Source: Nitrospirota bacterium (GTDB taxonomy: Bacteria; Nitrospirota; Nitrospiria; Nitrospirales; Nitrospiraceae). Taken from it: 43,350 nt of DNA. The position numbers and the translations under genes were made by a program. Below are positions 28,594 to 33,258 of the stretch, piece by piece; the stretch's first letter is position 1, and each line of letters starts with the position of its first letter. The notes beneath the pieces were generated by a model, which searched no databases, was not told the DNA's origin, and was given only the letters and a program-made list of their open reading frames with translations. The stretch is from positions 1 through 43,350 of the forward strand of contig JACAFD010000220.1 in NCBI GenBank assembly GCA_013388555.1. The letters are read 5' to 3'.

Positions 28594-30918
28594 ATGGCTT
28601 CGACTCAAGCAGCCCCTCCGCACACAGAACCAGAGCCTGTATTCGCAGATGTCATCGTCCCGCGGCATCTGGCAGGCCCCTTCACCTACACCGTGCCCTT
28701 GTCCCTCAGAACGACACTACGCATTGGACATCGAGTGCTTGTGCCCTTCGGACGGTCGCTTCTTCAAGGAGCCGTGATCGCCCTCTCCCAGGCCCTTCCT
28801 GCGAGTTTTGATCGAGCGCGCCTCAAGGAGATTCAGTCGCTGATTCCTGAGGAGACTCCAACAGATGTGTCATCGAACCTATTCCAGCTCTCGCGGCGAG
28901 TGGCCGAACAATATGTCGCGCCCTGGGGGCAATGTCTCAGGCTCGTGCTGCCTCCGGCACCCAAACAGCGGGCGAATGTCAGCCGCTACGAACTGACGGA
29001 ACAAGGGCGGGCCGCGCTTGTGGCACGCAAATCTTTCTCAGTGAAGGTGCGGGCGCTGCTTACTCGTCTCGGGAGAAAACCTTCAGGACTTCGCCGATCA
29101 CCCGGCAGTACCGGTACTGCCGAGTTGTTGGAAGATTTCAAGATTCGTGGATGGGTGGTGGAGGTCCAGGATCAGCCGTTGGCCTCGACAGCGCCGCTCA
29201 CTCGACTATCCAGACAGATGAATCAGGGCAACTCCGGTATCACTACACCGCTCATTCCTGACACCTCAACATTTTGGGCCGGACCCCTGTTCGAAGCCCT
29301 GAGAGGACAAGGACCGTCTCGGGTTCTGGTGCAAGCTCCCTGGGGCGATCGGTTGAGGCTGTTGCAGTATGCCATTCGCCTGGCACTCGACCGAGGAAAA
29401 GCGGTCCTCATCCTCGTCGGCGAAGCAGAGCGGGCCCAGTGGGTTGCCGAGTTGATCTGCAATCACGAGACAGGCATCTCAGCGGCTTGTTTCCATAGCG
29501 GTCTCTCGGACCAGGTGAAAGCCGAGCTATGGGACCAGATCCATCGGCAGGTCGTTCGAGTGGTCGTAGGAACCAGGTCGGCCATCTTTCTCCCATTGAC
29601 CGGAATCGGAGTGATGTGGATCGAAGGAGAAGAAGATGCGGCGTTTAAAGAAGCACAAGAGCCTCGCTACCATGCACGGGACGTGGCATGGTTGAGAGCG
29701 CAAGATGAACAGGCGGTGCTGGTCCTGAGCTCTTCCCATCCGTCCCTGGAGACCAGAGCGGCTGTGGGGCAACGCGGAGTTGTTGTATGTAAGTCCATAC
29801 CGTTCGAAGATCGACCGAGTGTCCAGGTCGTTGATTTGCGTGATCATGGCCACGGTGCTGTGCTGACCCAGCCGCTCGTTCGGGCTATCGAGCAGGCGAT
29901 GAGTCGCCAAGCCGGCGTCCTCTTGTTTCTCAACCGAAAAGGCTATGCAGGCGCCCTCGTCTGTCGAGACTGCGGCCAGGTTCCCCGCTGTCCTGCCTGT
30001 CGCGTGGCCCTGATGTACTCTCGGCGGGCAAGTCGCCTACTCTGTTCCTACTGCGGGGGCGGTGCGCCCATGCCCGAGACCTGCGTCTCCTGTTCCGGTC
30101 CTCGTATGCAGTTGATCGGGGAGGGAACAGAGCGATTAGAAGAGGAGGCGAAGCGATTGTTTCCCCAGGCGGCAGTGATTCGGCTTGATGGAGATACCCT
30201 GCAGCGACCAGCCCAAGCCGCGGCCCTCTGGCGGAAGGTCGAGCAGGGTGAGTGGGATATCATCGTCGGCACACAACTGCTGCTACGGCGCGGGCCTCTC
30301 CCGAGGATGGGTCTAGTTGGGATTGTGCAAGCGGATGCAGGGCTCAGCATGCCGGATTTCCGATCTGCCGAACGTACCTATCATATGCTCCTCGATGCGG
30401 TCAGTCTCGCCGACACAGCAAGGCATGGCGGGCAGGTGATCGTGCAGACCTATCTAACCTCTCATCATGCCATTCAGGCTGTGGCTCAGAACGACGAATC
30501 AGTCTTCGTAGTGGAAGAGCTGTCCCATCGGGCAGCACTGGGGTATCCACCTACGGTGTACCTGATCGCCCTTCTTGTATCGGGATCCGATGAGAAAATG
30601 GTTCGCGACGCTGCCTCTGCCTGGGTGGCTCGCCTCACCGCCTCTTCTTCACCATCCGTGGCCAGACCGGCTATCCCAGAAAAGGCCCCTTCGACAGCTG
30701 ATTCGATCGGTCGGCCCGACCGTCTCACTGTTCTGGGGCCAGTCCCCTCTCCTGTGTCGAGACTCCGTGGGCGATACCGGTGGCAAATACTCGTGAAGTC
30801 TCTCGAACGGGAAGTGGGGCTCGAAGCGGTGCGGGTGACGGTCAAGGAAATGGAACGAACTTATCAGCGCCGAGTCGTCAAGTTCGATATCGACGTTGAT
30901 CCGATCGCGGAGTGGTAA
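28594..30918 (+). CDS. priA: PriA homologue with decayed helicase motifs
   Basis: A 774-residue protein collinear with PriA, the primosomal protein that reloads the replicative helicase at stalled forks. The N-terminal DNA-binding domain (FADVIVPRHLAGPFTYTVP) is normal, and all eight zinc cysteines are present (457, 460, 466, 469, 484, 487, 497, 500). But the Walker A site, usually GxTGSGKT, reads QAPWGDRLRL (247-256); the DEEH box reads EGEED (344-348); GSATPS reads SSSHPS (379-384); and the motif VI QxxGRAGR reads AVSLADTAR (602-610). ATP-driven unwinding is therefore unlikely, as in actinobacterial PriA. The reading frame is intact, so the protein is probably retained for a structural loading role. 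No ribosome-binding site is clear. Confidence 0.88.
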   Translation: MASTQAAPPHTEPEPVFADVIVPRHLAGPFTYTVPLSLRTTLRIGHRVLVPFGRSLLQGAVIALSQALPASFDRARLKEIQSLIPEETPTDVSSNLFQLSRRVAEQYVAPWGQCLRLVLPPAPKQRANVSRYELTEQGRAALVARKSFSVKVRALLTRLGRKPSGLRRSPGSTGTAELLEDFKIRGWVVEVQDQPLASTAPLTRLSRQMNQGNSGITTPLIPDTSTFWAGPLFEALRGQGPSRVLVQAPWGDRLRLLQYAIRLALDRGKAVLILVGEAERAQWVAELICNHETGISAACFHSGLSDQVKAELWDQIHRQVVRVVVGTRSAIFLPLTGIGVMWIEGEEDAAFKEAQEPRYHARDVAWLRAQDEQAVLVLSSSHPSLETRAAVGQRGVVVCKSIPFEDRPSVQVVDLRDHGHGAVLTQPLVRAIEQAMSRQAGVLLFLNRKGYAGALVCRDCGQVPRCPACRVALMYSRRASRLLCSYCGGGAPMPETCVSCSGPRMQLIGEGTERLEEEAKRLFPQAAVIRLDGDTLQRPAQAAALWRKVEQGEWDIIVGTQLLLRRGPLPRMGLVGIVQADAGLSMPDFRSAERTYHMLLDAVSLADTARHGGQVIVQTYLTSHHAIQAVAQNDESVFVVEELSHRAALGYPPTVYLIALLVSGSDEKMVRDAASAWVARLTASSSPSVARPAIPEKAPSTADSIGRPDRLTVLGPVPSPVSRLRGRYRWQILVKSLEREVGLEAVRVTVKEMERTYQRRVVKFDIDVDPIAEW

Positions 30919-31571: not shown

Positions 31572-32348
31572 TCACCCATTCGCTCCCGTAGTGCCCTGAC
31601 TGCTTCCTCGTCTGACAGCCCGAAAGAGCTGCTCACGTTCCCCTCCGGTGAGTGGCTTCCACTCTCCGGGGCCTAATCCATCAAGCGTAATGTGGATGAT
31701 CCGGACACGATGCAAGGTGAGAACCCGATACCCCAAGACTTGGCACATGCGCCGGATCTGTCGATTGCGTCCTTCGGTAAGGGTGATACGGAATCGTGTG
31801 GGATCGAGTCGTTCTATCCTGCAGGGCTTGGTTGGGCGTTCGAGAATGACAACCCCTTGAGTCATGCGGTCGATGAACGTCTGATCGAATGGATGATCGA
31901 CCGACACCTCGTATTCCCGCTCATGCCCGTGCTCGGTCCGTAGAATCTCGTTCACAATGTCCCCGTCGTTCGTCAGAAGAATGAGACCGGAAGAGTTCTT
32001 GTCGAGTCGACCGATCGGAAAAATCCGTTCAGGATGGCCGATCTCTGCGATGATATTACGAGGTACATGTGACTCACTGGTCGTCGTCACACCTACCGGC
32101 TTGTAATACTTAATATAGAGCGGGACCGTCCCCCAGGGAATCTCTTGACCGTCTCGCGCGATCACGTCGCCAGGACCGACCTGATCTCCCAAGCTGGCCA
32201 CCCGCTGATTGATCGTGACGCGACCGGATTCGATGAGGCGGTCAGCCTCTCGCCGTGAACAGATGCCGTGGTGGGTAAAAAACTTATTAATACGAAGCTT
32301 GTCGGTCACGGGCTGGTATGCCGTTTCAATGGACGCGGCGGCCCGCAT
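31572..32348 (-). CDS. rluF: 23S rRNA pseudouridine synthase RluF-type
   Basis: A 258-residue RsuA/RluB/RluF-family enzyme. The S4 domain lies at about 18-65 (LRINKFFTHHGICSRREADRL). The catalytic motif is FPIGRLDKNSSGLILLTNDG with Asp116, and the C-terminal LTEGRNRQIRRMCQVLGYRV is typical; the phrase GDIVNEILR points to RluF rather than RluB. It modifies uridine in 23S rRNA. Its start lies inside the end of the agmatinase gene (23-base overlap), so the two are translationally linked although unrelated in function. Confidence 0.88.
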   Translation of the reverse strand: MRAAASIETAYQPVTDKLRINKFFTHHGICSRREADRLIESGRVTINQRVASLGDQVGPGDVIARDGQEIPWGTVPLYIKYYKPVGVTTTSESHVPRNIIAEIGHPERIFPIGRLDKNSSGLILLTNDGDIVNEILRTEHGHEREYEVSVDHPFDQTFIDRMTQGVVILERPTKPCRIERLDPTRFRITLTEGRNRQIRRMCQVLGYRVLTLHRVRIIHITLDGLGPGEWKPLTGGEREQLFRAVRRGSSQGTTGANG

Positions 32349-33258
32349 TGATCCGTCCCAACATGCGGTAGATCAATCGGGCGATACAAAACTGTGGAGC
32401 GACGAACCCTTCTATCGGAGCAATCTCGCTGATATCCATCCCGAGGATACCTGGTCCATTCGCTAAGGCTGTTATGAGGTTCACCGTATCGTACCACCCC
32501 AACCCGCCGGGCTCAGGAGTGCCGAGTGCAGGAACCAGCGAAGCATCAAGCCCATCACAATCGAAGGTCAGGTAGACGGGCCCACGACAGGCCTTCACCA
32601 CATCGGGAATCCAGCGGGAGGCCTTGCCTTCGTACGGGCCTGACTGGTCAAGAATATCGGCGGCAAAGAACGTGGTAATTCGACCGGTGCTCTTAATGCA
32701 ATCGATCTCCTCGGGAGAGATGGAGCGAATGCCGACTTGAACCAGCGGCAACCCGTCGTCGACCACGCGGGCCATCACACTGGCGTGGCTATACGGATTC
32801 CCTCCGTAGGCCTTCCGCAAGTCTCCATGCGCGTCGATTTGCACTACACAAAGATCGGGATAGCATCGGGCATGGGCTCGGATGGCCCCAAGTGCGCCGG
32901 TATGTTCTCCCGTCAAGGTGACAACAAAACGCCCGGTACCGACAGAGGGGGTGACAAACGCCTCAATTGCCTCCACCGCTTGCTGATCGATTTTGCCGTC
33001 GAGAGCGAGCGAGCGAGCGGTGGCAACGCCACCCCACTCCCGATAGGGCTCACATCGAAGCGTTTCGTCGTATAGCTCAACTTGTTGGGATGCCTCGATG
33101 ATGGCCGAAGGGCCTCGATCTGAGCCCCGCACATAGCTGGATGTATGCTCATAGGGCGCAGGCAAGACGTAGACGCCCGCCTGGTCAGGATGGCACCAGG
33201 GTTCTTCGAGCCCGAGGAAGTTCTGGTCTATGCCTTCCCATCCAGCGGGAAGTGTCAT
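32326..33258 (-). CDS. speB: Agmatinase / arginase-family ureohydrolase
   Basis: A 310-residue ureohydrolase. The binuclear manganese ligands are visible: His119 (LTGEHTGALG), Asp142, His144 and Asp146 (QIDAHGDLR), and Asp233 and Asp235 (FDCDGLDAS). The substrate motif ALGTPEPGG is complete. Agmatinase (agmatine to putrescine plus urea) is favoured over arginase because the gene lies 23 bases downstream of a pyruvoyl-dependent arginine decarboxylase, which makes agmatine. The two steps give putrescine from arginine without ornithine. Confidence 0.92.
   Translation of the reverse strand: MTLPAGWEGIDQNFLGLEEPWCHPDQAGVYVLPAPYEHTSSYVRGSDRGPSAIIEASQQVELYDETLRCEPYREWGGVATARSLALDGKIDQQAVEAIEAFVTPSVGTGRFVVTLTGEHTGALGAIRAHARCYPDLCVVQIDAHGDLRKAYGGNPYSHASVMARVVDDGLPLVQVGIRSISPEEIDCIKSTGRITTFFAADILDQSGPYEGKASRWIPDVVKACRGPVYLTFDCDGLDASLVPALGTPEPGGLGWYDTVNLITALANGPGILGMDISEIAPIEGFVAPQFCIARLIYRMLGRINAGRRVH

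Follow-up and report, generated by a model that had tools for sequence, protein, structure and literature searches.

The window, by which we mean the whole 43,350-nucleotide stretch of DNA analysed, carries a single-copy priA gene with altered helicase motifs, whose features are the following:

28594–30918, + strand: priA, single copy, an open frame with an ATG start encoding 774 residues of a PriA predicted to be ATPase-dead
28642–28953, + strand: 3′ DNA-binding domain (3′BD), residues 17–120, intact (PF17764, 79 bits)
28978–29169, + strand: winged-helix region, residues about 129–192, present (from AlphaFold2 secondary structure and linker lengths)
29332–29361, + strand: former Walker A site (motif I), QAPWGDRLRL, residues 247–256, one residue shorter than in live (motif-bearing) PriAs
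29569–29583, + strand: motif Ib, GTRSA, residues 326–330, kept
29623–29637, + strand: former DEEH box (motif II), now EGEED, residues 344–348
29665–29682, + strand: aromatic-rich loop, RYHARD, residues 358–363, kept
29728–29745, + strand: former motif III, SSSHPS, residues 379–384, with SAT lost and PS kept
29923–29943, + strand: motif IV, LFLNRKG, residues 444–450, kept
29962–30093, + strand: zinc-binding cysteine-rich region with eight cysteines, residues 457–500
30268–30294, + strand: motif V, GTQLLLRRG, residues 559–567, with GTQ kept and the KGHD half lost
30397–30423, + strand: former motif VI, AVSLADTAR, residues 602–610, standing where live PriAs have the QVAGRAGR region; arginines lost
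30556–30906, + strand: PriA C-terminal domain (CTD), residues 655–771 (PF18074, 57 bits)

The frame is open over its full length, as the earlier note had claimed, and its product belongs to the PriA family. It scores 383.9 bits with TIGR00595 (curated cut-off 230.35), exceeds the cut-offs of both PF17764 and PF18074, and can be aligned end to end with the E. coli and Klebsiella PriAs of solved structure. PF18319 alone falls below its cut-off (17.8 bits against 26), although all eight zinc cysteines are present (residues 457, 460, 466, 469, 484, 487, 497 and 500). Each of the eight was also found in 111 of the 111 relatives counted, so that the zinc cysteines are intact, as had been stated, and the match to PF17764 bears out the same statement for the N-terminal DNA-binding domain. 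The host genome is a 99.5%-complete draft of 3.52 Mb in 327 contigs. No second priA was found in it; the next matches to TIGR00595 are Mfd, UvrB and RecG. Elsewhere in the window, on the reverse strand, a pseudouridine-synthase-like frame (31572–32348) and an agmatinase-like frame (32326–33258), whose roles were judged by eye from the sequence, overlap by 23 bases.

Alignment with motifs I, II, III, V and VI of the E. coli and Klebsiella PriAs places the altered motifs where the earlier note had put them. Compared to live PriAs, GVTGSGKT is replaced by A-PWGDRL, DEEH by EGEE, GSATPS by SSSHPS, GTQMxxKGHD by GTQLLLRRGP, and QVAGRAGR by DAVSL...ADTA. The accompanying description, that every helicase motif is lost, is slightly overstated: the erasure covers motifs I, II, III and VI and half of motif V, whereas motif Ib, motif IV and the GTQ of motif V survive. 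The signature of an active PriA DEXH helicase (Walker A GxTGSGKT, DEEH, SAT and QxxGRxGR) is not found in the window PriA, which instead has the pattern of a PriA pseudohelicase: its catalytic motifs are gone and the remainder of the protein is conserved. Judging from the missing catalytic residues, ATPase and helicase activities are predicted to be absent.

An AlphaFold2 model of the window PriA (pLDDT 85, pTM 0.84) has a complete PriA fold. Its best matches among solved structures are PriA chains (Z 30–36), and it superposes onto fork-bound E. coli PriA (8fak_H) with an rmsd of 2.9 Å over 581 residues. The domain order and fold are those of the E. coli (8fak, 6dgd) and Klebsiella (4nl4, 4nl8) proteins, with which it shares the zinc domain, the aromatic-rich loop, and motifs Ib and IV. 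E. coli PriA is an active 3′–5′ DEXH helicase with PriB, DnaT and DnaC as partners; the window PriA, in contrast, appears ATPase-dead by sequence, and its genome contains DciA. In the model, strand 242–247 runs nearly straight into helix 250–266, with no space between the two for a phosphate-binding loop. ATP might still be bound or hydrolysed via a rebuilt site, for which one could cite the arginine that replaces the Walker A lysine in 87% of the clade to which this PriA belongs (the window clade, below) and the acidic residues still found at motif II. However, the P-loop glycines and GKT are gone along with one residue, the predicted strand nearly abuts the helix at residue 250, the motif VI arginines are missing, and K230R by itself abolishes the ATPase of E. 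coli PriA (PMC4504706); we regard a rebuilt site as very improbable.

PriA was obtained from 280 of the 296 Nitrospirota genomes searched, and 111 sequences entered the motif counts, in which canonical residues were scored at 14 catalytic positions. The mean is 13.9 of 14 in 28 motif-bearing Nitrospirota PriAs, compared to 1.1 of 14 in 64 sequences of the window clade; the loss of catalytic residues in this clade is not a product of chance. Within the order, every sequence read (families f1, f2 and f3) shows the loss, as do those from f8, a sister family in the same class. The motifs are retained in families f4–f7, f9 and f10 of the class and in another group of Nitrospirota families. The zinc cysteines, the glycine of motif Ib and the NRxG of motif IV are present in 100% of the window clade. 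In the public species set, the named members of this dead group comprise Nitrospira MAGs (e.g. RBC048, RBC085 and CMX_2) and Nitrospirales bacterium NPIRA06. In a simple pattern search, nearly all of the other 73 public loci (from Bacillota, Acidobacteriota, Planctomycetota and others) had canonical or near-canonical motifs, with a few departures. Six PriA frames from other phyla (L102, L118, L108, L117, L137 and L164) contain DEEH and failed the strict GxTGSGKT pattern; these may be truncations or further variants. Six genomes with estimated completeness of 92–99% (G105, G257, G175, G239, G215 and G244) gave no PriA match, which could reflect gaps or true absence.

The alteration of all catalytic motifs together, in a genome that is a draft of many contigs, might be read as a degrading pseudogene or as a sequencing or assembly error. 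Against this, nine congeners and every sampled PriA of three families show the same dead state, the frames are open, all eight cysteines are retained, and dN/dS over the whole gene is about 0.17–0.32 in close pairs. The low dN/dS indicates that the dead PriA is maintained by purifying selection, and we give decay or error next to no weight. The earlier note had named two refuting outcomes, a corrected sequence with the Walker motifs restored, or an intact second PriA together with relaxed selection on this one, which would mark a decaying copy; neither is encountered here, the congeners being alike, a second priA absent and dN/dS low. One outlying dN/dS of 0.53 involves the N-interrupted sequence of congener G108 and is untrustworthy. 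The apparently split priA of that genome was dismissed as a scaffold artefact, as each piece ends in a 100-N run inside the gene. Its halves (L072 and L073, on G108:C22) lie 54 kb apart in opposite orientation, indicating a misassembly.

A second ATPase-dead PriA clade was found in 13 sampled families of the phylum (f15, f21, f23, f25–f31, f33, f35 and f38; L182–L201). Here the Walker A lysine is mostly replaced by glutamate, with no one-residue deletion, and motif VI is three residues shorter; in the window clade, by contrast, the lysine has become arginine with the deletion, and motif VI is rewritten. The winged helix is gone in the four second-clade proteins checked, in which about 30 residues separate the 3′BD from the helicase lobe, compared to about 100 or more elsewhere. 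The open frames of this clade are only 607–705 residues long. PriA trees were made without the motif columns, from a sample that left out the actinobacterial dead PriA and to which outgroup phyla were added in one version. With or without these phyla, each dead group forms one clade, giving two changes in total, and the loss in the window clade maps to an ancestor of the order. Uniting both dead groups in one clade is just short of being rejected by the PriA data taken alone (AU p 0.053), and the tree of RecG, an independent gene, rejects such a union for the organisms (p 7e-57). A single origin of the two clades was discarded on the strength of the RecG result for the organisms and of the differing replacement residues. 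Family f8 is joined to the order in the PriA tree, with a support of 95–98. In the RecG tree, a long branch with a genome of the live-PriA family f4 (L230, G119) lies inside the dead group, separating f8 from the order, and f8 may therefore represent a third loss of the PriA ATPase.

Actinobacteria have a PriA lineage without helicase motifs, and the state seen here had been presented as either an independent loss or a shared trait. It proves to be both, inherited across the whole order and separate from the losses in Actinobacteria and in the second clade. Actinobacterial PriA (PRK14873, “primosome assembly protein PriA”) likewise lacks helicase motifs, and its independence is read from family-model scores: the window PriA obtains 53–175 bits from the PRK14873 models, compared to 458 bits from PRK05580, and the best PRK14873 model (174.9 bits) lies below its cut-off of 812, placing the two proteins in different lineages. 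M. tuberculosis Rv1402 has been treated as an essential helicase loader by one review (PMC5694481).

Mean identity differs between domains in a manner that depends on the group, and, as the live and window groups are unequal in depth, only the order of the values within each group is to be read: live PriAs have a higher value for the ATPase lobe (HD1, 0.54) than for the 3′BD (0.34), and in the window clade the order is reversed (3′BD 0.45, HD1 0.39). Such a reversal would be expected if constraint had shifted from the motor to DNA binding. The fast-evolving parts of window-clade PriA are the winged-helix, linker and C-terminal regions. Within residues 102–106 (window 28897–28911), the window PriA has Arg102 and Gln106, at positions that are variable across the clade and equivalent to E. 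coli Trp82 and Tyr86, the aromatic residues of the SSB-tail pocket. More than 90% of the PriAs that are live or belong to the second clade have tryptophan and tyrosine there. The contact with the SSB tail may thus also be gone in the window PriA.

The PriA of D. radiodurans (Deinococcus-Thermus) resembles the window protein in being full length with motifs I and II broken. This motif-deficient protein has no measurable ATPase or unwinding activity, but its affinity for ssDNA and forks is near normal and it binds DnaB (PMC4504706). Its Walker A lysine is replaced by arginine in a site that matches poorly yet is still recognisable, whereas the P-loop of the window PriA is shortened; the latter protein, known from sequence, also differs in belonging to another phylum and in the erasure of motif VI and half of motif V. 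ATPase-dead mutants of E. coli PriA, such as K230R, are still able to assemble the primosome (PMC4504706).

We propose, with a probability of about 0.85, that the window PriA is a pseudohelicase that acts as an ATP-independent fork-recognition scaffold and helps to reload DnaB. The 3′BD, the dead lobes, the zinc domain and the CTD would together clamp an abandoned replication fork. In E. coli, the zinc domain, second lobe and CTD enclose the lagging-strand ssDNA in a pore upon fork binding, and the same change exposes a docking surface (PMC10175261). All parts forming this pore are retained in the window PriA, which would hold the lagging-strand ssDNA and present it to the DnaB-DciA loading machinery. 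Restart without PriA unwinding, as proposed earlier, would then follow from the parallel with the D. radiodurans protein (PMC4504706). If the nascent lagging strand is unwound at all, other helicases would do so, with RecG and a PcrA/Rep-type SF1 helicase both present, or its unwinding would be confined to forks on which ssDNA is already exposed.

We consider it unlikely that the protein has left replication restart for another role, such as that of a regulator or of a repair scaffold, and has ceased to load DnaB. The altered SSB-docking aromatics in much of the clade are compatible with such a change, as is the fact that the DnaB link of the window PriA is drawn by analogy, but the parts with which E. 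coli PriA grips the fork (3′BD, zinc domain, CTD and lobes) are retained, this is the only PriA of the genome, and DnaB binding persists in the pseudohelicase of D. radiodurans (PMC4504706).

As regards the loader of the proposed scaffold, DciA has been suggested to work with PriA in Caulobacter (PMC9825169). It was found in 47 of 47 genomes tested, and also in control genomes of Thermus, Deinobacterium and Corynebacterium. Since genomes with live and dead PriA possess it alike, DciA does not explain the loss of the PriA ATPase, and gain of a compensating loader was rejected. Gain of a compensating SF1 helicase was likewise rejected, as UvrD/PcrA-type counts are no higher where the ATPase is lost. 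The order is without the 300-bit PcrA/UvrD type of its class-mates and has a diverged relative instead:

L243, 480–2663 (G000:C172): diverged PcrA-like SF1 helicase (about 250 bits with PF00580; 447 bits with pcrA, cut-off 911)

Ordinary PcrA is mostly kept in the second dead clade. Full-length RecG is present in 28 of the 30 sampled genomes, being not found in G023 and broken in G251, a single-contig genome whose recG (C1:1762921–1764643) apparently forms two frames and contains an internal TAA.

The PriA pseudohelicase is already known as a kind, with the D. radiodurans example demonstrated. What is new, relative to the papers searched, is the breadth of the loss (a whole order, including Nitrospira), the completeness with which the site is erased and its recurrence inside Nitrospirota; a search of this literature on PriA loss in Nitrospira and Nitrospirota found no relevant paper. 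In textbook replication restart, PriA is regarded as a helicase. The order-wide loss and the separate second loss suggest that restart rarely needs the PriA motor. Further losses of the ATPase would be those of Deinococcota and Actinobacteria. The zinc domain and the fork-binding parts are retained in each Nitrospirota loss, and we lean, at somewhat better than even odds, towards the view that the ATPase was lost at least twice, perhaps three times, in this phylum and that what selection universally maintains in PriA is the ATP-independent work of recognising forks and loading the helicase. If so, unwinding would be an optional add-on of PriA, possibly dispensable only with DciA as the loader. 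The annotation “PriA helicase” in Nitrospirota often names an activity that is probably absent. The two loss lineages provide natural replicates for finding the indispensable part of PriA, and an entire order, including the Nitrospira nitrifiers, apparently has no PriA other than a motorless one.
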